This document shows positions 4,004 to 24,233 of a DNA stretch of 64,000 bases, piece after piece. The position numbers and the translations under genes were made by a program. Positions within the stretch are counted from its first letter, which is position 1, and each line of letters opens with the position of its first letter. The notes beneath the pieces are model-generated. The model did not search any database and was not told where the DNA came from. It was given only the letters and a program-made list of their open reading frames with translations. The DNA is taken from assembly GCA_017616895.1 (NCBI GenBank), contig JAFZXE010000010.1, forward strand, positions 186,001-250,000, in the 5' to 3' direction. Origin of the DNA: Bacteroidales bacterium (lineage in GTDB: Bacteria; Bacteroidota; Bacteroidia; Bacteroidales; P3).

Positions 4004-5446
4004 TTACATCAAGGAATCAATAACATTCTTTATTTCACCAGGAACCTCGCTTGGGGAAAAAAATGGAACGACCTGCCTAGCACTAATTCCAACACCATAT
4101 TCTTTACGCGTCCACACAGACAATGCCTTGAAAAAATGCTTTCCGGAAACAATATTTAAAGGCTCATCTATACGACTATTTACTTCATCTATGTCTGTTG
4201 AGGATTTTCTTATGTTTTTTTCTATTTTTTTGTAATCAGCAGAAAGAATATCCTTGATCTTTTTTATGATAGCATTTATTTCAACTTTTTCCTTCCTTCC
4301 AACGGACTCAAGATATCTACAAATAACGTTTATGTTTATAGCGTAATTGTCAATTTCATTTTTCTCCCAAACATGAAGTTTTATTCCTCGTGAGTGGGCA
4401 TCATTATTACGTTCCTGGATTTCCTCTATTGTATGAAATCCTGAATTGGCAATACAACACAATTCCACATGAATTTTATTGAGATTAAATACTTCCGAAA
4501 TAGAAATACTTTTATTCCAATCATCCCATCCATTCACATATGCTTTCGGATACGTAATAATTGGATGTAAGTCATGAGGATATAAGACTGATTGAAATGC
4601 CGAAAGAATTGCCCTATCAGACTCTCCCCCGTCCCATATAATAAATCGATTGGATATAAAGAGACGTGCAAGGTCAATGTTGAGCGGGCTACCGAGCTCC
4701 TCTGAAAGTGCCAAGAGTGCCGCCTCATCCCCTATTGGTTTTATCTGACGCTTATTCGAATCGATTGGAATAATACAATCAGAAGGAACCTCTTCAATTA
4801 TTTCTAAGGAATGCGTAGCAATGATTAGCTGAGAAAACATCGGGGTTATTAAGCGAACCAGTCGTCTCTGTAAATCAGCATGCATATAGACATCCGGCTC
4901 GTCAAGGACGACAATTGCATTATTTGGACATTGTGAAATAAACCACATTGTCTGTATCCACATTTGCAACCCATGTCCCATCCATCCTAACTCAGCCACG
5001 AAGGAGCGAACTCGGACAAAAAAATGTAGATATTGGCCTTCATTCGAAAAATCTGACTCTACAGGCTTAACCTGCAATTCTTCCCATGTGGACTCCACAA
5101 GTTCTTTGAAAGCAGGAAATGCCTCGTTGTAATAAAATAACTGATTTCTGAAATTTCGTGATGCTAGGCGTGTTGAACGATTTCCGTCGACAGTTGACTT
5201 CTTTATAACTTTTTCTGTATCTAAAACTGCTGATATTTGCGGCAAAACCTCAATTACTGGAATATCAACTTCCTTTGCTTCTTTGCTGTTACGGATGGGG
5301 TACCCACTCTCATCGTACAATATAGCAAAGATGGACAAGCCCTCACCGACATATGCTTTTATGGATGTGCCATTAGAAAATACCGCCTCTATGACCGCCG
5401 GAGGTTCTCCGTACATATTGAAAATACCGCGATCAGAAATATTCAT
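4004..5446 (-). pseudogene. OLD-like AAA ATPase lacking the Walker A region (5'-truncated)
   Basis: The 480-residue frame has a Walker B stretch IVVLDEPDVYMHADLQRRL at about 178-197 and the following IIATHSLEI, as in ABC-type ATPases of the OLD / AAA_21 class. Next comes a possible degraded TOPRIM start (FIIWDGGESDRAILSAF, about 268-284). OLD proteins are DNA-associated ATPase-nucleases, often in phage defence. A P-loop (GxxxxGKS/T) is absent: the frame opens at MNISDRGIFNMYGEPPAVIE, which in this class lies after the P-loop, and an in-frame TAG lies 9 bp upstream. No frame in the 200 bp upstream supplies a P-loop. The gene is visibly AT-richer than its neighbours, suggesting transfer. I infer a 5'-truncated gene; a short functional variant is less likely. 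Confidence 0.7.
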
Positions 5447-10668: not shown

Positions 10669-13600
10669 ATGATAGCCGCTTTGATAGCGACATCCATGAA
10701 ACGCTGTGAATTACTGTTTACACGGGCGTTGAGATCTGTCCTAAATCAGACAAGGAAAGCAGATATTATTATCATTGTGGACGATAACGAAGATTGTTCA
10801 GAGTCTTTGAAGATTCAGAATTATTTGGAGAAACTCAACAACCCGTCTATTCTATATCTACACAATTCACATGTGAGCGGTATTTCGGGAACAGGAGCCT
10901 GGAATACGGGCATAGAATACATCATTAAGGAGTTTGGTCCAGATGCATATGTTGCCATACTAGACGATGACGACGAATGGAAAGAAAACCACTTGTCTGT
11001 ATGTATATCTGCTATTGAACAACATCCCGAATGCATTGGGGTATTCCCTTGGATCTATCGAACCGACTACAATAGAACCCTACACTTCAACGAAGGTGAC
11101 CTTACTATTGAACGTTTTTTAATAGGAGACCCCGGAATTCAAGGCAGTAACATGGTGATAAAAACATGCGGATTTGTTCAGGCCGGAATGTTTGATGAAA
11201 ATATGCCTTCGTGTACAGATAGGGATATGATGATCCGATTATTGCAACGTTTCCCCCAAAATGCATTTCATGCAATTCCCGAACACACAGTAAATTATTA
11301 TATTTCTGACAATTCAATCACATATAACAGAGAAAAAAAACATCATGGCCTGGATGTTTTTTTCAAAAAATATCTCAAAACATTTCCATCATTACGTTGT
11401 CTTGAACTCTCGTTGAAAAGAGCAAAAAAATTATTTGATTACGATGGCGATAACTTCATTATGGAATATAAACGTTTAGAATTGATTGCCATTGGCGTTG
11501 CCATACATAACAATGAGAATTCTATCGCAAGATGTCTGAAATCAATTGTAACACAAAAAGGCTACAAGCGACATCTCAAGATAGTGATAGGAGACGATGC
11601 GTCAGAAGACAATTGGAAGGGAAAAGCCAGACCATATTTAGACATACTTGATGTTGACATTCTAAATCTCAATAACAAAAATGTAAGCCAAACCAGGAAC
11701 GACATCAATAATTATATTAGAAAATATCTTAAGCACGTTGCAATTGTAGGACGACTGGATGCGGATGATGAATACGCCAATGACAACGTACTGAAAGATA
11801 TCGAATATGCTTTTGAATCAACAAAAGCAGATGTCGTTATTGGAGCCAACGGATATCGGGTCAATGGAAAACTAATTGACAAAAAAAATGCAGACAACGA
11901 ACGTCTAATCGATCCAGAATACCTAAAATCTCGTATTGATAGGATGGCATTGGGTATCACCGAAGCAGAACTCCCATCTTGTAACACATTTTTTAAACCA
12001 GAGGCAACGATTCCCTATCCTGATGTTACAAGTGCTGAAGATCATTTTCATACCACATACTACCTCACACATCCCTCATTATTCAAAGTTATCGTGACTA
12101 ATAACATTATGGTGACGAATTACAATCTAACTGGAACCACAACTCAAAACAACCTGCATTCAGGGGCTTACATCAAAAATCGAACAAATTTAAAATCCAA
12201 AATCACGTCATTCTTTATCGAGAACGAAAGAATAACCTCTGCAAAGAAAGACTTAGCAGCCGCAGGAATTGATGCCAACTCACTCTCATTTCTTGGACAA
12301 GGGCAAGAAGGTGTCGTTTTCCACGACTATAAGAAAGTGTACAAAGTTTTTCTGCCATTATTTGCAGGAGAAAACGACGGATGGCTAAAGCGGCATATAC
12401 AACCTTTTGAATCAGACAAACTTCTAAAATCAAAGCATTTTTATAGAATCAAGTTCCTCAGCGAAAATATAATCACTTATGAATATCAATGCTCCGAGGA
12501 ATGTAATACTTACTCGATTGAAGAAGTCTTATCCTTTCTCTGTGAGAGTTGGAGATACAAGATAATTGTCAAAGACTGCAAACCTAAAAATTTCATACGA
12601 GTCAATGGCACCATAAAGCTAATTGACATGAAGGGGTACGACTATGATGACAATTTGTTTTTGAATATGTGCGCTCGCATGTACCTATATGCAAAGTATG
12701 GAGGTACCAGAAATAAATCAGAAATGCGAAAGCTCACTAGGAGTGCTATCAATAATTTTGAATTACCAGAATTATCCAACTCATTTCGCGAATTTGTCAA
12801 CAGCGTCTATGCTGCGATTATATGGCAAGAATCCATAACGGCCATTAATAGTCTTCAGCGCAAATGCTCCGGAACGGTTTTTGAAGAATATGCCTTTGGC
12901 GACCTTCCCAATCTTGAGCAGTTGTATTACAAAAAACTGAGAGCAGGGCTTGCACTTCGCGATTTGACTGTTCTAAAAACGAACCTTTCCAAGGAGAATT
13001 ATTTCACACCGCAATCCATTAGAATCGGTTATGACAAAATATCCCCGATAAAGGACTCCATTTCCTTCTTGATAAAATGCTGCCCTCAAGATGTCAATAC
13101 ACTTGAGGCGAATGTCAAGCATATTGTGCGACAGTTATGTCAGCCTGAAATGCCAAGTGAAATCATTTTGGGAATCGACCCCTACGCTGGAGCATATTTG
13201 CGGGAATTCAACAACAATGGAGACCTTGAAACCCTTCTAAGAATTGCCAGCAAACTCAAAACAGATGGTATTATAGACAGATACATTGTCTATGCAGATA
13301 CCGAAGAAAGTAATCGAACCATAAGCAAACGTTGGTTCGGATGCGAGTCCCCATATTCACATACTGAAGATCTAAAACCTGTACTGCCACAACTTTTTGC
13401 ACTCGAGGCTTGCCTAGGAAACTATATTCTTCAGATGGATTCTGATGTCTTGGTTGGACGCGATGACTACTCACACAAATTTCTTTCCGAGATGCTAGAC
13501 CAACTCAAGACCCACGATAATGTCATATCTGTTGGATTCAATATTCCCAATGAGGAATCCAAACAATATTACGGATTCGAAAACGGAGGTTTCGTGCCAG

Positions 13601-15432
13601 AGATACGGCTCGGTCTCTTCGACAAAAGACGCCTACTGGCTGCAAGACCTTTACCCAATCCCATTAACAATTGCGGTCATTTGACCACGTCCTGGTTCAG
13701 GGCGTTGGAGACCAAACAAAGGGAATCTGGACTATGTTCTATCCGAGGTGGCGATAAAAGGACATTCTATATACATCCACAAAACTACCGCAAGAAGTAT
13801 CCGTCAAGTTGGATGCCTATTTTGGATCGTATCGAACAGGGCTTTATTCCCAAAATTCAAATTGGAAAATTTGATTGTGATGGAAGCCTTATGGAATGGT
13901 GCCGTCCGAAAAGGAATGAAGAGGTAGTCATTGTATCGGTTTTTCGAAACGTAAGATACGACAGATTTCTTCGTTTCTGGACGTCAGTCATTTCTCAAAC
14001 TGATGAAGAATTCGGAATACTACTTTTCGACGATGCTTCTGACAACGGCCTACCATTCTTCATTGAAAACATAATTAAAGGTTATGAGAATCGGGTAACC
14101 TATATTAAATCACGAGTAAAATCCACAAGAATGGAAAACGTTTATACATGTATCCACAAATACATGTCTAATCAGCAGAGCGTTATCCTGATGGTGGATG
14201 GAGACGATGCTTTAATTGGAAATACCGTAGTACGACAACTAAAGGATTATTACCGATATTATGATTGCGATGTAATTGTAGGACGATTCCACCAAACTTA
14301 CAGGATACAGCCACACTATCGCTATCCTGTGGATTTCCAAAATCCACGTGAAAAGGGTGGTAATGTTTGGCAACATTTGAAGACTTTCAAAAAGTATCTC
14401 TTTGATTCTATACCAAGGGATTATTTTGTACACAGCTCAAACAAGTTATGGAAATGGGGGGCAGCACTATGGTTCGAAAATGTTGATGACTTTGCAATGA
14501 TGGTTCCTATAGTTGAAATGTCCGAAAAACCGATGCAAATGGATATCGTAAATTATTATTACGAACGGGATTACGAGCACAGAAATGACAAACGAGAGTT
14601 GAAAGAGCAAATAATATCCGAAATACTAAACAAACCAGCCCTACATTCGGGGAATTACCATATCGGCAGAAAAAAATTTTTACCAAAATTTGATAAAATA
14701 GAACTCGATATCACACATGATTGCAATCTTAAATGTCACGGATGCAATAGATCTTGTGGTCTTGCACCAACAAAGGAATGCGTGACAATTGAGCAAATCA
14801 AAGCATTCATTTCCGAGAGCAAGGACTTAGGAATCAAATGGACTTTAATAAATGTACTTGGAGGGGAGCCAACACTTCATCCCGATTTTCTAGAAATAAT
14901 AAGAATATTAAAGGAAGATTATATTTGCACATTTTCTCCAAACACCATTCTACAAGTTGTCTCAAATGGGTTCACCGAAATCAGCCGTCAATTATGTGAG
15001 GAAGCTAAACGTAAACATGACATCGTCATAGATTACGCATCATTCAAAACAAGCAATAAAATCGATTACTTCACTCAATTCAACAATGCTCCAATTGATG
15101 ATCCTGCATTCAAAAACGCCGACTATACATCGGGCTGCTGGGTTGCTGAATATTGTGGAATAAATATGAACCACAATGGTTTTTTTGCCTGCAGTATTTG
15201 TGGAGCAAACGATAGGGTAATGTCTGCCAATAGTGGCGTAAAGTCCTTGAAAGAACTAACGCATGAAAAGATAATGGATCACTTCAAATCATTCTGTCCT
15301 TTTTGCGGAAACTTTAGCGAATATGACGAAAATTATGGTGATAATATCATACGGAGCGAAAAACGTCCTTATAAAGAATTTATATCTGTCTCATGGCAGA
15401 CCATTTACAACGAATATGCAAAAAAAACATAA
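10669..15432 (+). CDS. Multi-module glycosyltransferase / kinase-like / radical SAM protein
   Basis: This is a single 1587-residue frame without a signal peptide. Modules in order: GT2-like with LDDDDEW at 98-104; second GT2-like from about 272 with DADD at 364-367; kinase or aminoglycoside-phosphotransferase-like part with a Gly-rich loop LGQGQEGVVF (542-551), Lys559, catalytic-loop-like VKDCKPKNF (Asp636, Asn641) and LIDMKG (Asp653); a GT-A-like module from about 797 with DSD at 924-926; a GT2-like module from about 1085 with DGDD at 1177-1180; and a radical SAM domain with Cys1352-x3-Cys1356-x2-Cys1359, GGEP at 1398-1401 and trailing Cys 1490, 1496, 1508, 1511, 1543 and 1546 (possible extra Fe-S sites). 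It probably builds or decorates a glycan or a glycosylated peptide. The gene is AT-rich against its neighbours, stands alone and ends at a terminator, which suggests transfer. No close named family is known to me. Confidence 0.8.
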   Translation: MIAALIATSMKRCELLFTRALRSVLNQTRKADIIIIVDDNEDCSESLKIQNYLEKLNNPSILYLHNSHVSGISGTGAWNTGIEYIIKEFGPDAYVAILDDDDEWKENHLSVCISAIEQHPECIGVFPWIYRTDYNRTLHFNEGDLTIERFLIGDPGIQGSNMVIKTCGFVQAGMFDENMPSCTDRDMMIRLLQRFPQNAFHAIPEHTVNYYISDNSITYNREKKHHGLDVFFKKYLKTFPSLRCLELSLKRAKKLFDYDGDNFIMEYKRLELIAIGVAIHNNENSIARCLKSIVTQKGYKRHLKIVIGDDASEDNWKGKARPYLDILDVDILNLNNKNVSQTRNDINNYIRKYLKHVAIVGRLDADDEYANDNVLKDIEYAFESTKADVVIGANGYRVNGKLIDKKNADNERLIDPEYLKSRIDRMALGITEAELPSCNTFFKPEATIPYPDVTSAEDHFHTTYYLTHPSLFKVIVTNNIMVTNYNLTGTTTQNNLHSGAYIKNRTNLKSKITSFFIENERITSAKKDLAAAGIDANSLSFLGQGQEGVVFHDYKKVYKVFLPLFAGENDGWLKRHIQPFESDKLLKSKHFYRIKFLSENIITYEYQCSEECNTYSIEEVLSFLCESWRYKIIVKDCKPKNFIRVNGTIKLIDMKGYDYDDNLFLNMCARMYLYAKYGGTRNKSEMRKLTRSAINNFELPELSNSFREFVNSVYAAIIWQESITAINSLQRKCSGTVFEEYAFGDLPNLEQLYYKKLRAGLALRDLTVLKTNLSKENYFTPQSIRIGYDKISPIKDSISFLIKCCPQDVNTLEANVKHIVRQLCQPEMPSEIILGIDPYAGAYLREFNNNGDLETLLRIASKLKTDGIIDRYIVYADTEESNRTISKRWFGCESPYSHTEDLKPVLPQLFALEACLGNYILQMDSDVLVGRDDYSHKFLSEMLDQLKTHDNVISVGFNIPNEESKQYYGFENGGFVPEIRLGLFDKRRLLAARPLPNPINNCGHLTTSWFRALETKQRESGLCSIRGGDKRTFYIHPQNYRKKYPSSWMPILDRIEQGFIPKIQIGKFDCDGSLMEWCRPKRNEEVVIVSVFRNVRYDRFLRFWTSVISQTDEEFGILLFDDASDNGLPFFIENIIKGYENRVTYIKSRVKSTRMENVYTCIHKYMSNQQSVILMVDGDDALIGNTVVRQLKDYYRYYDCDVIVGRFHQTYRIQPHYRYPVDFQNPREKGGNVWQHLKTFKKYLFDSIPRDYFVHSSNKLWKWGAALWFENVDDFAMMVPIVEMSEKPMQMDIVNYYYERDYEHRNDKRELKEQIISEILNKPALHSGNYHIGRKKFLPKFDKIELDITHDCNLKCHGCNRSCGLAPTKECVTIEQIKAFISESKDLGIKWTLINVLGGEPTLHPDFLEIIRILKEDYICTFSPNTILQVVSNGFTEISRQLCEEAKRKHDIVIDYASFKTSNKIDYFTQFNNAPIDDPAFKNADYTSGCWVAEYCGINMNHNGFFACSICGANDRVMSANSGVKSLKELTHEKIMDHFKSFCPFCGNFSEYDENYGDNIIRSEKRPYKEFISVSWQTIYNEYAKKT

Positions 15433-17933: not shown

Positions 17934-20900
17934 TTATCTCACGACCAACTTTGAGGTTGCGGTTGCTTTGCCGCTGACCACGTTGACGATATAGATACCT
18001 TTACGCAGGTTCTGGCAGTTGAGCTGAGTCTTATGGTTGCCAGCATCAATACGGCCGAGGTTCTCGGTGAAGACCACCTTGCCGCTCATGTCGAACACGC
18101 GAACCATAGTGTTGGCGTTCTCAGAGAGGTTGATGTCGATGGTAGCCTGAGAGGAGGTCGGGTTAGGATAGATGGAGACGCTGGTCTTGCCGGTTGCCAC
18201 AACTTCGGGGACGCCGAGGAAACCTGGGTCAACGACGGTGTTGCTCGTGTCGGTAACATATTTCTTGTCCATGAATATTCCACGACCGTAAGTACCGAAA
18301 TACATTGCATAAGGATACTTGGTCTTGACGAAGACGTTGTTTTCCTCGTTGATACCATTGTGGGTGAGCAGGGCGATACTCTTGAGAGTGTCTGTCTGCT
18401 GGTGGATTGCAGTCACGGGGACGCCGTTGAACTCGCCATAAGTTTCCCACGAAGGAGTTCCGGCAAACGAGCTCGCCGATGCCACAAAGACACCGTCTTC
18501 GGTACCGACATAGACCTCACCAGTGGTATATTCAACCATAGCGGAATATACAGGAATCTTTGCTTCGGCTACAGATTTGGCCTGAGCGGTATAAGACGCC
18601 TGGGAAGCATTGTCGAACACAACCACATTAGGTTCTGCATCGTCATAGCCGCCGAAGGTAACAACCAAACAGTCTTTACCGTCGCGCTGGTCAATATTCA
18701 TAGAGGTGACCGGGCGGGCGAAGTTAGTGCTGCCATTGAACATCAGAGTGTCTTTAATCATCTGGCAATTCGGTGAGAGATAGTTGAAATAAAGACCCAC
18801 AGCGCTATTGGTATCGTTAAGCTCTATGCTATTCAACCCTCTGGTACGCAAGATGAAGTATGAATTGTTAGCGCTATCCGAAACGGCCGCATAAGCAGCG
18901 TCGCCATTTCTAGACATAGCTACGTGACGGATATTGTAGCCGTCGGTAGAATTAACGATGAAGAGCTTGGCCCACTCCATCGTAGCACTATAGTTACCCA
19001 TTCCGTGTTCTTCGGAAGACCACACTCTTCTGAAATCCATCGGATTCCACGCCATCAGTACGGCACTCATAATGAACTTGGCTCCAGATCTGTATTTAGC
19101 AGTCATCATGGCGCGGCTGTGATAAGGAGACTGGACCTTAAGCTTCATGTTTGAATTGGTAAGCACAAAATCTTCGGTGAAAGTATATTCAAACGGGTAG
19201 CCGAAGAACGAAGGATGTGAGAAAACCATCTTATCACCAGCCTGGATAGTGAAAGGCAGGCTGTTGAAGACAGAGTCGATAATGCGACCGGCATTGTCCA
19301 TCGAGTCTTTTTTGTTAAGTTGGATTCTTTCATCGCCACGAATAACAAAACCGAGTGTATCTATAGTTACCGTCAGGGAATCCTTTATCTCAGTGTTGTT
19401 CATTGTTTCCCAAAGGTGGAGGGCTGGCCTATTGTAACCAAATCCAGGCACATTGCTGAAAAAGCCTTCGCCGGTTGTCCAAGTCTGGGTTTGGGTGTAG
19501 TCGCTATAGTCGTTGTAAGTACGGCCAAACTGAAGGTCGTCGGCAGAGACCATCAAACCACGAGCCGGGGTGGGAAGAGCTCTCTGGAAACGAGAAGCAG
19601 CACAAGGACCACCACTACCAGCGAAGATGACGTTGGCGCTGTGGTTGACTTCGGCGTCGTCAGCACCAGAACGAGAAGCGAGGAACGGACAAGCCAAATC
19701 GGTAGCACCCATAATCAGAGAACCATCGGGGCAGATTGCGAAATCGACAACTGGGGTAGCATTAAGACCAAACGAAATGTTCTCGAAATAATTCAAAGAA
19801 ACGCTGTGATATACGCCGCCGTTGGTTGCAACAAAGAAAGACTCACCATCTTGCAGAATCTGCTTGATACCAGAGTGAACAGCCATGGGGTTGTTATAGA
19901 CATACGACATATAGTCACCCATGTTGAGCGAAGACTCGCTGTATGAATTGTTTGTCCACTGGAAGATAGCATCCTCGATATAGCCACGACCTGTCCAGAT
20001 TGTTTCGCCTCCGATATAGATAATCTTGGGGTCAACGGCATCAACGGTGATTGAACCACAATTCTCACCATTACGGAGCGATGAGAACGGCTTGACAGAA
20101 GAGGTGTTGAGTTTCAACCATGTCTGCTGATCTTTCGAGAGATAGACGCCTGTGAAAGTACCCTCGGTGGTGAATACCATTGCATAAAAATATCTTGCAT
20201 CAGAAGGAGCAACGGCTATTTTGATATTGCCGCCAGCCTCAGCGAAAAGAGACTCGTTGACAGTGATGCAAATCGGAGCCTGCACGTTGGCGTCGTTCTC
20301 GACATTGGAAATGCGATAGATGGCACCAGGAGTGGTGAAATAGAGGATTTTCCTGGTAGGAACGATTTCGAGGTCACGGACAGCGCCGTCGAAAACCTTT
20401 GTGCTGGTAGCCCAGTCGTCGGTGGTGGTGTAAAGGCCGTTTTCTGTGGCGGCAAACTGACGGTGAATCGCACCACTCTCATAGATCGAAAGCTCATTGA
20501 TGAAATAAAAATCACCGTTGTCAGCGGGGTCAATCAATTGGGTGAACGTTTCGTCCTGCAACTTCCAAAGACCGCGACCACGAGATGCCATTGCAGCTGT
20601 GTCGTTACCAAGCACATATCCTTTCTCGCCGGTACCGATGAATATGACGCCAGCGTCGTTTTTAACCAAAGAGGTGATGGGAAGTGTGAGCTGGCTGCCG
20701 TTGGGCAGATAGCAAGGCATAAAATGCCATCTGTCGAAAGCATTGGCGGCGGTTTTCTTGTAGAGGCCACCCAGAGCAGTACCGGCATAGATTGTTTCGC
20801 CGTCCATCAGTAGGGCAGAAACCCTGCCACCGATGTTTTCAGGACCGATTTCCTGCAGGTTGGAGACGTTGTAATTGGCTTTTGTCTGCGCATCGGCTAC

Positions 20901-20960
20901 GGCCGAAAAACAAAGCAACAAACCTGCGAAGAGGCCGAGAAGTAGTTCTTTACTTTTCAT
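17934..20960 (-). CDS. T9SS type A sorted protein with beta-propeller-like repeats
   Basis: This 1008-residue protein has a signal peptide (MKSKELLLGLFAGLLLCFSA..ADAQ). The N-terminal half has repeated short-strand units with turn motifs such as GGRVSALLMDGETIYAGTAL, GVIFIGTGEKGYV and AATENGLYTTTDDWATSTKV, which point to a sialidase/BNR-like or two-component-sensor-like beta propeller. Later units are IYIGGETIWTG, FVATNGGVYHS and VYVGTEDGVFVAS. The last about 80 residues are a T9SS type A tail: VSIYPNPTSSQATIDIN, FDMSGKVVF, KGIYIVNVVSG..SKLVVR. It should be exported through the type IX system to the surface. The function is unknown. It has its own promoter and terminator. Confidence 0.85.
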   Translation of the reverse strand: MKSKELLLGLFAGLLLCFSAVADAQTKANYNVSNLQEIGPENIGGRVSALLMDGETIYAGTALGGLYKKTAANAFDRWHFMPCYLPNGSQLTLPITSLVKNDAGVIFIGTGEKGYVLGNDTAAMASRGRGLWKLQDETFTQLIDPADNGDFYFINELSIYESGAIHRQFAATENGLYTTTDDWATSTKVFDGAVRDLEIVPTRKILYFTTPGAIYRISNVENDANVQAPICITVNESLFAEAGGNIKIAVAPSDARYFYAMVFTTEGTFTGVYLSKDQQTWLKLNTSSVKPFSSLRNGENCGSITVDAVDPKIIYIGGETIWTGRGYIEDAIFQWTNNSYSESSLNMGDYMSYVYNNPMAVHSGIKQILQDGESFFVATNGGVYHSVSLNYFENISFGLNATPVVDFAICPDGSLIMGATDLACPFLASRSGADDAEVNHSANVIFAGSGGPCAASRFQRALPTPARGLMVSADDLQFGRTYNDYSDYTQTQTWTTGEGFFSNVPGFGYNRPALHLWETMNNTEIKDSLTVTIDTLGFVIRGDERIQLNKKDSMDNAGRIIDSVFNSLPFTIQAGDKMVFSHPSFFGYPFEYTFTEDFVLTNSNMKLKVQSPYHSRAMMTAKYRSGAKFIMSAVLMAWNPMDFRRVWSSEEHGMGNYSATMEWAKLFIVNSTDGYNIRHVAMSRNGDAAYAAVSDSANNSYFILRTRGLNSIELNDTNSAVGLYFNYLSPNCQMIKDTLMFNGSTNFARPVTSMNIDQRDGKDCLVVTFGGYDDAEPNVVVFDNASQASYTAQAKSVAEAKIPVYSAMVEYTTGEVYVGTEDGVFVASASSFAGTPSWETYGEFNGVPVTAIHQQTDTLKSIALLTHNGINEENNVFVKTKYPYAMYFGTYGRGIFMDKKYVTDTSNTVVDPGFLGVPEVVATGKTSVSIYPNPTSSQATIDINLSENANTMVRVFDMSGKVVFTENLGRIDAGNHKTQLNCQNLRKGIYIVNVVSGKATATSKLVVR

Positions 20961-21626: not shown

Positions 21627-24233
21627 ATGGACAGCAGCAAGAAGATAAGCAGGATGACCCGAGCGGTTTTGGCATGTGTTTTTGTGCTGCTTGGTGCGTA
21701 TGGAGGAAGGTCATGGGGACAATGCGACAACGGTATGGAGGGGCGAGATTTCTGGCTGATGTTTTTGCACAATGCCGAAGGTGTCAATGGGGTTGACAGC
21801 CTTCCCGAGTTGTCGGTTGTGGCGGCGGCCTCATATACGACTGAAATACAGGTCAGCATACCACAGGCGGGATGGGCGGACACAGTAGTAGCGCAACCTG
21901 GGGAGGTTGTGCGTGTGGTGCTGCCGTATGAGTTGGCACACGGATTGCCGTATGCGGAAGTGTTGGGAACGGGCGTGCATGTGACCAGCGACGAACCGAT
22001 AGCGCTGTATGCGTCAAATTTCAGGTTTAGGATGTTCGACATGACCTCGGTACTGCCGACGGAGATGTTGGATACGACTTACATTATGCAGACGTTTGAC
22101 GGCACCAATAGCACGGATTTTGACGAGGTCGGTTTCGTAGCGGTGGAGGACAGCACCGAATTGTGCATAGTCTTTCGTTCATATACGTCAATACTGTATC
22201 AGTATGGCGACTACGAGTACCCTATGGCTTTATCCTTGGGGTCTCACGATACGCTGCGAACCGTGCTTATGAGCGGAGAAACGTGCCAGTTGCGTACCAC
22301 TGGTTACCCGATGACATTCTCTGGCGTCAAGGTGTTTTCGAACGGCAAGCCATTCGGCGCGTTTCAGGGATCAGGGGAATGTAATGTAGTATTAGGAAAC
22401 GCTGCCGTATTCAGCACACTTGACCACCTGTATGAACAGACGATACCCACGAAATACTGGGGAAGGAAGTTTCTGGTGATACCGACATTCGACTATGGAG
22501 TCGGGAGCGACCTCATAGAAGTGACATCTGCCGCAGACAACTGCGAGGTGCGTTTCAACGGCGATTCGGTACGCCGACTTGCCGAGGGAGAAACATTTCT
22601 TATAGAGTTGCGGCAAATGGCGGCCAGTCATGGAGGCGAAACGGAAGGATACCTGATAGAAACGAGCGAGCAGGCGTGTGTGATACAATACATGGGTGTA
22701 GATACTATCACAGATGGAAACGAATTCAACCAATACCACAATATAGGCGACCCGTCGTCGGTGTATATACCGCCGGTAGAGCAAGGGCCGCCGTCGATGC
22801 GGTTTCAGACGGTGAACACCGCAGCGATACAGCAGCACTATGTGAACATCACGGCACGAACGGAAGACACAGCATCTGTGAGATTTGACGGAGAGCATCT
22901 GAACTTCACACCGTTGGATTGCGGATACAGTTTTGCGAAGGTGATGGCGCCCGAGGGAGTTCACAATATCACGTCGAACCACAGCAGGGTTCTGGCAATC
23001 GTGTATGGGCGAGGAAACAGGGAAAGCTATGCGTATATAGCGGGTATGTCAACCAGCAATTTGAAATACAGGCTTTTTGCGAACGATGTGGATATTACGT
23101 TCAGAAGCGACACTATACGGCTTTGCGAAGGAGACAAGATGAATTTTCTGCTGCGAGGCGAAGATGAAAATGCGCAGATAACGTGGCTGAGAAACGGCAT
23201 CGATGTAAACGAGCACGACAGCACCTATCTGTTTCAAACAGATATGGAGGAGACCTACATCGTGGAGACAGTCCTTCCGGACAACTGCGACACGCTTAGG
23301 ACGTATTTGTCAGTGTCGCATGACACAATACGAATCGATACAACGATATGCGGAGGTACTGCATACGAGATTGAGGACACACCTTACGCTGCAGCCGGGA
23401 CCTATTTTATCAAGACAGGAGAATGGGGCGACTGTTCTATCACGAACCTAAACTTACAAGTCAAGCAAGTACCGAGCCTTGAGATTGAGACAGAAATTGA
23501 CTGCGAAAAAGAGAGCCAGCGAGTGACGGTGACCGTGACCTCGGACACAGTTGAACCGCTGTGGTGGCGAGCCGTACCGGAAGACGAATCGCTTTACGGA
23601 CATGAGCAAGACGACACAATATGGGTAGAGCCTATGAGTGAACAAGGATGGTATGAAGTGACGGTGGGCGATATGTGCAAAGCTAGCAAGAGCGTGACGA
23701 TTGATCGAGTGGTTGCGGCAATGGCAGAATTGAAAGTAACCCCAGAGCGACTCACTCCAAACGACATGAGCTTCATGGCATACGACCTATCGACAGACAT
23801 CGGAAGAGAATGGTATGTGGATGGTGTTCAAATGGATGAGTACGGCAGAACCCTATTGTACTACACCAGCGAAGATGAAGACAGTCTTCTTGTGACGCTT
23901 ATGGTATGGAACGGGCAATGCCAAGACACCGCCGAAGTATGGGTACACCTTGACCGAGAGGCACTGTGGATACCCAACGTATTCACGCCAAAGGAAGAAA
24001 CAAACAACAAATTCGCCGTTGTAGGAAGAGATGTCGAGCTGGTGAGCATCGACATATACAACCGACGGGGTGTATTGGTTTACCATAGTGACGATCCAAC
24101 CAAAGGATGGGACGGAACTCACGGAGGAAAACTATGCCCACAGGAAGCATACGTATGGCAGCTAAAGTACGTGGCAAAATCAACACGAAACTCATATAAG
24201 ACAAAAACCGGTACAGTAATGCTTATGCGGTAA
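21627..24233 (+). CDS. IgGFc-binding-like protein with gliding-motility-associated C-terminal (CHU_C) domain
   Basis: This 868-residue exported protein has its signal peptide at about 12-31. The mature N-terminus (GMEGRDFWLMFLHN) and the repeated LYASNFRFRMFDMTSVLPTE pattern match the IgGFc_binding N-terminal domain seen in Bacteroidota surface proteins. Ig-like or SprB-like segments follow in the middle (LCEGDKMNFLLRGEDENAQI; TICGGTAYEIEDTPYAAAGT). The last about 85 residues are a type B T9SS signal: WIPNVFTPKEETNNKFAVVG, VSIDIYNRRGVLVY, KGWDGTHGGKLCPQEAYVWQ, KTGTVMLMR. Type B cargos are usually exported by T9SS and often attached or assembled by SprF-like partners, none of which is seen here. 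A role in adhesion is an inference. It is divergent from the propeller gene. Confidence 0.85.
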   Translation: MDSSKKISRMTRAVLACVFVLLGAYGGRSWGQCDNGMEGRDFWLMFLHNAEGVNGVDSLPELSVVAAASYTTEIQVSIPQAGWADTVVAQPGEVVRVVLPYELAHGLPYAEVLGTGVHVTSDEPIALYASNFRFRMFDMTSVLPTEMLDTTYIMQTFDGTNSTDFDEVGFVAVEDSTELCIVFRSYTSILYQYGDYEYPMALSLGSHDTLRTVLMSGETCQLRTTGYPMTFSGVKVFSNGKPFGAFQGSGECNVVLGNAAVFSTLDHLYEQTIPTKYWGRKFLVIPTFDYGVGSDLIEVTSAADNCEVRFNGDSVRRLAEGETFLIELRQMAASHGGETEGYLIETSEQACVIQYMGVDTITDGNEFNQYHNIGDPSSVYIPPVEQGPPSMRFQTVNTAAIQQHYVNITARTEDTASVRFDGEHLNFTPLDCGYSFAKVMAPEGVHNITSNHSRVLAIVYGRGNRESYAYIAGMSTSNLKYRLFANDVDITFRSDTIRLCEGDKMNFLLRGEDENAQITWLRNGIDVNEHDSTYLFQTDMEETYIVETVLPDNCDTLRTYLSVSHDTIRIDTTICGGTAYEIEDTPYAAAGTYFIKTGEWGDCSITNLNLQVKQVPSLEIETEIDCEKESQRVTVTVTSDTVEPLWWRAVPEDESLYGHEQDDTIWVEPMSEQGWYEVTVGDMCKASKSVTIDRVVAAMAELKVTPERLTPNDMSFMAYDLSTDIGREWYVDGVQMDEYGRTLLYYTSEDEDSLLVTLMVWNGQCQDTAEVWVHLDREALWIPNVFTPKEETNNKFAVVGRDVELVSIDIYNRRGVLVYHSDDPTKGWDGTHGGKLCPQEAYVWQLKYVAKSTRNSYKTKTGTVMLMR

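Follow-up and report, generated by a model that had tools for sequence, protein, structure and literature searches.

A 1587-residue glycosyltransferase, kinase-like and radical SAM protein from a Bacteroidales bacterium is the fused version of a previously undescribed gene set found across bacteria and archaea

In the huimycin cluster of Kutzneria albida, genes of the GTP cyclohydrolase I, QueD, QueE and QueC types adjoin a glycosyltransferase that is proposed to place N-acetylglucosamine on a methylated preQ0 base (PMC7439116). In a minority of its loci, the gene set described in this report resembles that cluster in having a glycosyltransferase beside genes for the supply of preQ0. However, in the part of that report available to us the minimal huimycin cluster consists of one transferase and a methyltransferase, with no kinase and no extra radical SAM enzyme, and the two are likened without sequence comparison. 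In blasticidin S biosynthesis, the radical SAM enzyme BlsE, which carries CX3CX2C and GGEP, acts on base-bound glucuronate (PMC3715490, available part). That route uses cytosine rather than a deazaguanine, and the radical SAM module considered here is only weakly similar to cytosylglucuronate decarboxylase (PDB 7vob, E 0.09). Thuringiensin is a base-bearing oligosaccharide; its pathway employs a UDP-glucose dehydrogenase as well as a glycosyltransferase, and a kinase completes the molecule (PMC4147579). There, however, the kinase is of the shikimate-kinase type, adenosine is used, an NRPS-like carrier takes part, and no radical SAM enzyme is listed in the portion of the paper at hand. Type IV CBASS and qatABCD also co-opt a QueC-family enzyme beyond tRNA, but they join the nucleobase to protein, and no transferase-kinase-radical SAM set is described in the available text of the two sources (PMC11996544, PMC13329287). 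The Dpd islands are scattered and use preQ0. Unlike the present case they serve DNA modification with 7-deazaguanines, and according to the part of the survey available (PMC11888242) about 27% of them have preQ0 genes at the same site and about 9% have YhhQ there. These rates are close to the 9 of 61 regions with a QueC-like gene and the 5 of 61 with a transporter reported below.

Chondroitin polymerase K4CP (PDB 2z86), a bifunctional polymerase, is the best VIA match of one glycosyltransferase module (GT5) of the protein described here. In bifunctional polymerases of the K4CP type, GT-A modules are fused in one chain. We know of no kinase and no radical SAM domain in such polymerases.

The window, meaning the whole stretch of 64,000 nucleotides that was analyzed, holds a single uninterrupted frame of 1587 aa that encodes four GT-A glycosyltransferase modules together with one kinase-like module and, at the C-terminus, a radical SAM module (rSAM). 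From the N- to the C-terminus the order is GT1, GT2, kinase-like, GTA4, GT5, and rSAM. The features are as follows.

10669 to 11463, plus strand: GT1 module (aa 1-265), a GT2-family GT-A glycosyltransferase with DDDD at aa 99-102; Pfam PF00535.
11464 to 12213, plus strand: GT2 module (aa 266-515), a GT2-family glycosyltransferase with DADD at aa 364-367; Pfam PF00535.
12214 to 12978, plus strand: kinase-like module (aa 516-770) with a Gly-rich loop, K559, D636, N641, and D653.
12979 to 13953, plus strand: GTA4 module (aa 771-1095), a GT-A glycosyltransferase with DSD at aa 924-926 and RGGDxR at aa 1026-1031.
13744 to 13778, plus strand: the GTA4 signature RGGDxRx[FY][FY]xHP used as a scan motif, with one match in the window and 0 in 100 shuffles.
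13954 to 14658, plus strand: GT5 module (aa 1096-1330), a GT2-family glycosyltransferase with DGDD at aa 1177-1180.
14659 to 15429, plus strand: rSAM module (aa 1331-1587) with a CX3CX2C motif, GGEP, and, toward the C-terminus, six additional Cys; Pfam PF04055.

Elsewhere in the window, an AAA ATPase (AAA_21) is encoded at 4004-5446 on the minus strand, and its weak matches to AriA, GajA, and PtuA suggest that it may be of a defense type. Type IX secretion tails (Por_Secre_tail, CHU_C) are found at 17934-20960 (minus strand) and 21627-24233 (plus strand), which fits a Bacteroidota genome.

The architecture of the protein is well supported, and the observation made in a preliminary description of this DNA, that of one open multi-module frame, is confirmed. 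That description had recognized GT2-like modules and an additional GT-A module with a DSD motif. Pfam PF00535 was matched in three stretches of the fused protein, the DDDD of GT1 is kept in 35 of 35 alignment rows, and D364, D366, and D367 of the GT2 module are kept in 38 of 38. GTA4 has no Pfam match, and a search of the PDB by sequence gave nothing better than E 0.47. Structure modeling nevertheless found GT-A folds for GTA4 and GT5, the two glycosyltransferase modules modeled, and each of the four segments modeled in all gave the expected fold or fold matches. The best fold matches of these glycosyltransferase modules are enzymes of glycan, polysaccharide, and teichoic-acid synthesis. GT1 has weak WcaA- and PglI-like matches in NCBIfam, and its relatives include a separate Salinivibrio gene (P0002, 33%) and the N-terminus of the protein P0006 (36%).

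The kinase-like domain, noted earlier for Lys559, Asp636/Asn641, and Asp653, is equally borne out. Its profile matches protein kinases in the PDB with E about 1e-6, Foldseek returned CaMKII and RIO2, and the kinase Lys, the Asn, and the DFG-type Asp are invariant across the family. The position of the HRD-type Asp is more variable: among 43-44 kinase rows it is Asp in 20, Asn in 20-21, and Thr, Cys, or Ile in the other 3. The fused gene keeps the Asp (D636), nearly all split Salinivibrio-like rows have Asn, and L006 and L009 have Thr and Cys, respectively. Phosphate transfer by the rows with Asn, Thr, or Cys is uncertain because the catalytic Asp is replaced.

The radical SAM assignment also stands, since Pfam identifies a Radical_SAM domain and eight Cys (CX3CX2C plus extra C-terminal Cys, SPASM-like) are kept in 37 of 37 alignment rows. 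The best three PDB matches of the rSAM profile are, in order, 5wgg, which we take to be a peptide-modifying enzyme, 7tol, which acts on lipids, and YydG, which is peptide-modifying. Weaker profile matches are to BtrN and to 7vob, and the sugar enzyme BtrN is also among the fold matches. Prokaryotic viperin models are matched weakly (E 3.8e-9). A separate Salinivibrio gene, P0005, is related to this module with 34% identity.

When 295 genomes of the order were searched with the whole protein, and GTDB contigs were scanned with single-sequence peptide patterns, nothing besides the window was returned. The first relatives came from a plasmid collection, followed by one kinase match (G520) and then by the motif scan. 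On a plasmid of Salinivibrio kushneri, the same modules are split among genes: P0002 is GT1 alone, P0003 is GT2-kinase-GTA4-GT5, and P0005, on the opposite strand, is rSAM and adjoins an unknown gene, P0004. Scanning GTDB genomes with RGGDxRx[FY][FY]xHP gave 74 stretches, 62 of which contain relatives by tblastn at a cutoff of E 1e-3. The remaining 12, with no relative by tblastn, were dropped (L020, L022, L024, L027, L029, L032, L036, L038, L050, L051, L052, and L077). Because a single exact motif was scanned, the 62 loci are a lower bound and are silent on forms that lack the motif.

The six units, as fused or adjacent genes, are found in many bacterial phyla and in three archaea. A GTA4 tree covers 56 of the 62 loci, from Bacteroidota, Pseudomonadota, Planctomycetota, Myxococcota, Verrucomicrobiota, Spirochaetota, Fibrobacterota, Gemmatimonadota, Fidelibacterota, and the three archaea. 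Within lineages the occurrence is sparse. Among 395 genomes sampled from the window's phylum, the module was found in the window's own genome only, and kinase matches in 2 (G520 and the window's own); in the class of a Vibrio carrier the module was found in 2 of 274 genomes, namely that carrier and one partial match. The sparse occurrence and the low G+C of the fused gene fit the horizontal transfer suggested earlier. No relative was found in the viral contigs scanned; phages gave one generic glycosyltransferase match to the whole protein and no match to rSAM.

No description of the gene set was found in the open-access literature searched, the main text of a QueC family survey (PMC13329287) is without the words "glycosyl", "kinase", or "radical SAM", and no model met in scans of Pfam, NCBIfam, and PADLOC describes the set as a whole. 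The order itself, however, is not unique to this protein, as the 62 loci attest. The giant protein is the single-chain form of an undescribed gene set found across bacteria and archaea.

Six of the 62 loci have six-module fusions like that of the window (L019, cut by a contig end, L025, L065, L073, L075, and L061). Complete fusions include those of 1594 aa in L073, 1580 aa in L075, and 1581 aa in L093, which is the complete form of L061. GT5 and rSAM share one frame in 23 of the 62 stretches. On the GTA4 tree the window forms a clade with L019, L073, and L075 with a support of 100/100. The full-fusion label requires three changes on this tree (with L061 coded as split), and hence the full fusion was gained, or lost, more than once. 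The module order also varies, with rSAM first in L006 and GT1 after GT5 in L054. In a second locus type (L118, L121, L122, L123, L125, and L126), GT2 is replaced by another domain and the core as called lacks rSAM; a TIGR00725-like neighbor is found in three of these six loci, and the TIGR00725-like copy of L037 scores 105.1 against a cutoff of 106.9. The genome behind L046 (G708) carries both an rSAM-type cluster and a cluster of the rSAM-less second type (L125:1569-7592).

Several individual loci have features of their own. Tandem rSAM paralogues occur twice, at L009:2314-4073 and L063:5176-6907, with a nearby QueC that has the canonical YPDC. A kinase-GTA4 protein at L009:4070-6748 ends, by eye, in a histidine-phosphatase-like domain, and a related transferase-kinase protein at L005:202-2885, in another genome of the window's class, adjoins an ORF that by eye is M20-peptidase-like. 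On a Pseudoalteromonas plasmid (L003:5983-12505) the gene for the GT1-kinase protein P0006 precedes three overlapping genes, which encode, in order, a GTP cyclohydrolase II-NADAR fusion, an asparagine synthase, and an arylamine N-acetyltransferase. A P0004-like gene converges on GT5 in 16 loci (e.g., L060:793-1563), nearly all of them from Pseudomonadota, and 12 aligned rows have GNGPG-, CxPSxG-, and HNWLGERR-type motifs in common. The P0004 family has no significant Pfam match and no PDB match; it may resemble the GT42 sialyltransferases.

Neighboring genes were grouped over 61 regions, which are 60 of the 62 loci (L014 and L017 were left out) and the second G708 copy, some of them cut by contig ends. 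ORFs of at least 80 aa were clustered by blastp (E 1e-10), and a group was kept if it occurred in at least 3 of the 61 regions. The groups include SDR epimerases (13 regions), QueC-like proteins (9), and queuosine-precursor transporters (5), followed by a group with an ABC-type ATPase (4) and by Ugd-like, TIGR00725-like, and Lon-like protease groups (3 each); two further groups correspond to the three archaeal regions. On the sugar side, a UDP-glucose/GDP-mannose dehydrogenase is fused before GT1 in the archaeal loci L115 and L116, in seven loci a single chain carries an SDR epimerase domain flanked by GT1 and GT2, L085 has a Ugd-like gene, and L117 has a dehydrogenase match below the cutoff in a frame that also carries GT1. 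The fusions of GT1 to a dehydrogenase or an epimerase suggest that its donor is a UDP-uronic acid or an epimer of one. A carbamoyltransferase (L116:12530-14095) adjoins the Methanosarcina cluster, and type I restriction subunits directly adjoin both preQ0 genes and the cluster at L119:92-4256.

Curated family cutoffs were passed by six of the nine QueC-like genes and by all five transporters; the QueC-like genes of L012, L015, and L048 were assigned by alignment. With longest-start calls, the end of the rSAM-bearing gene runs into the QueC-like frame in L012, L015, L048, L093, L105, and L109, and in L009 the QueC-like frame overlaps a second, tandem rSAM frame. In L082, L083, and L084, the nearest relatives of the window, the fused gene follows the transporter gene at a distance of 2 bp. 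In L089 (Fibrobacter) the transporter gene overlaps GT1-GT2, and in L099 (Treponema) the overlapping genes are, in order, a sugar-dehydrogenase-like gene (below the cutoff), the transporter, GT1-GT2, kinase-GTA4-GT5-rSAM, and an epimerase. Genes for QueC, QueE-like, QueD-like, and FolE2 proteins adjoin the two rSAM genes of L063, with QueC and FolE2 above their cutoffs, QueE and QueD below theirs, and QueD above that of Pfam; they are convergent to the cluster and not co-transcribed with it. In L117 the QueC gene is on the opposite strand, at a distance of about 6 kb. Rough estimates that assume genomes averaging 3.8 Mb and a reach of 16 kb, with relatedness ignored, make it unlikely that such proximity arose by chance and are given no further weight.

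Family searches were also run over 50 whole genomes, the window's own and 49 others (G711 was left out). QueC was found in 42, the transporter family in 27, the tRNA-inserting enzyme Tgt in 49, and a QueD-type PTPS in 40; Tgt, taken as a control, in no case shares a contig with the cluster. Four of the five genomes with a cluster-side transporter are without QueC (G691, G727, G716, and G698; G729 has it), an association with a Fisher p of 0.0014 when kinship is ignored, and three of these four have a second transporter elsewhere. That a genome encodes QueC or the transporter at any site was not counted as evidence, since one or the other is found in 13 of 14 controls as well as in 49 of the 50 cluster genomes; the cluster genome with neither is G702. 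No QueD-type PTPS was found in G718 or G710, where QueC is near the cluster.

In 47 of the 61 regions, some of which are cut by contig ends, there is no deazaguanine gene, and none lies beside the fused gene in the window. In the window's genome QueC and PTPS are about 0.2 kb apart on another contig, and the transporter was not found. No preQ1 riboswitch passed the gathering cutoffs in 14 regions or before the window gene. Co-operonic QueC is seen in a Bacteroidota-type block and one Myxococcaceae locus, and the cluster-linked transporter in Bacteroidales, Fibrobacter, and Treponema, so the linked lineages are few when relatives are merged. The Dpd islands co-locate with their precursor genes similarly in part, and hence the minority of linked loci does not by itself speak against a deazaguanine. 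Six Bacteroidota-type cluster QueC rows keep SGGxDS, YxQxHxxE, VPxRN, and the zinc Cys of the canonical QueC motifs, among which YPDC is also counted in the available part of PMC13329287. At the YPDC position, five of the six have FWDC and L093 has FGDS, whereas the cluster QueC proteins of L117, L119, and L120 have YPDC. The Bacteroidota-type cluster QueC may thus take another substrate.

From the observed modules and their neighbors we infer the enzyme activities and a 7-deazaguanine substrate. The best single reading, to which we give slightly less than an even chance, is a single-chain assembly line in which a 7-deazaguanine-type base receives sugars and phosphate and rSAM reshapes the sugar. 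The pathway would be cytosolic, and its small acceptor, most likely a base such as preQ0, preQ1, or something closely derived from them, would come from QueC or through the queuosine-precursor transporter. GT1 would put a sugar of the UDP-uronic-acid type onto the base, GT2, GTA4, and GT5 would lengthen the sugar chain, and the kinase would phosphorylate a sugar hydroxyl. By analogy with BlsE and cytosylglucuronate, rSAM would modify the uronate or a different sugar carbon, and a phosphorylated oligosaccharyl-7-deazaguanine would be the result. The general interpretation in the preliminary description is partly supported: its outline of an assembly line that combines phosphorylation with radical chemistry is still the best one, and of the products it had considered, a glycan or a modified peptide, the peptide is now less favored than a nucleobase-bearing small molecule because genes for 7-deazaguanine supply and UDP-sugars recur nearby.

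The main rival to a glycosylated deazaguanine is ordinary surface-glycan or glycolipid assembly, in which the four transferases would build a phosphorylated oligosaccharide onto a lipid carrier or the end of a polysaccharide, with the deazaguanine genes as neighbors by chance or by lineage. The glycan, polysaccharide, and teichoic-acid enzymes among the best fold matches, the weak WcaA- and PglI-like matches of GT1, and the UDP-sugar dehydrogenase and epimerases nearby or in fusion all agree with such a role. However, among the matches listed for groups in at least 3 of the 61 regions, no flippase, polymerase, ligase, or carrier was recognized by eye; one four-region group includes an ABC-type ATPase (in L121). 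In several loci, moreover, QueC or transporter genes overlap or adjoin genes of the cluster, and we regard glycan assembly as rather unlikely while taking it seriously. Maturation of a RiPP, in which rSAM would modify a small precursor peptide before sugars and phosphate are added to it, would suit the peptide-modifying enzymes that rank first and third among the rSAM profile matches, but no short gene recurs in the neighbor groups (ORFs of at least 80 aa) and the fold matches include a sugar enzyme, which leaves this explanation very improbable. The existence of split versions of the gene set might suggest that separate genes were joined by an assembly error in the window. Such an artifact is next to inconceivable, as the frame has no stop, the complete six-module fusion recurs in the independent assemblies L073, L075, and L093, and the window's gene falls in a fully supported clade with its relatives.

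Alternatively, a macromolecule, be it protein, tRNA, or DNA, could be given a 7-deazaguanine for defense against phages, as in type IV CBASS or qatABCD, and the transferases and the kinase would decorate this base further. Precedent exists in the repurposing of QueC-family proteins for nucleobase-protein conjugation (PMC11996544, PMC13329287, available parts), and rSAM has its weak viperin matches. Defense-type neighbors are a type I restriction system in L119 and DrmMI-like (L125), HEC-01A-like (L123), and HEC-06/Orf5-like (L048, weakly L088) proteins; six of nine neighbors tested gave matches, and we claim no enrichment because the nine were chosen by eye. Core proteins of CBASS, Qat, and Dpd were not recognized among the neighbors viewed, a survey that was unsystematic, and Tgt-family genes are never on the contig of the cluster (0 of the 49 Tgt-bearing genomes among the 50). 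Modification of a macromolecule is accordingly improbable in our judgment.

A broader form of the preferred reading is a doubtful proposal, if a slightly less improbable one than modification of a macromolecule. It holds that the gene set represents an undescribed class of pathway that crosses domains, whose phosphorylated oligosaccharyl-7-deazaguanine would stay in the cell as a nucleotide mimic in phage defense or signaling, and which would be carried by a single protein of about 1600 residues in some gut bacteria and have its own base transporter in the nearest relatives.

What was a puzzling giant ORF can now be regarded as the fused form of a gene set common to bacteria and archaea. If the link to deazaguanines is true, queuosine precursors would be used beyond tRNA, DNA, and protein conjugation, and this use could account for the second queuosine-precursor transporter in some genomes. 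The protein would then also offer a single-chain enzyme in which to study the glycosylation of a base, the phosphorylation of sugars, and radical chemistry on sugars side by side.
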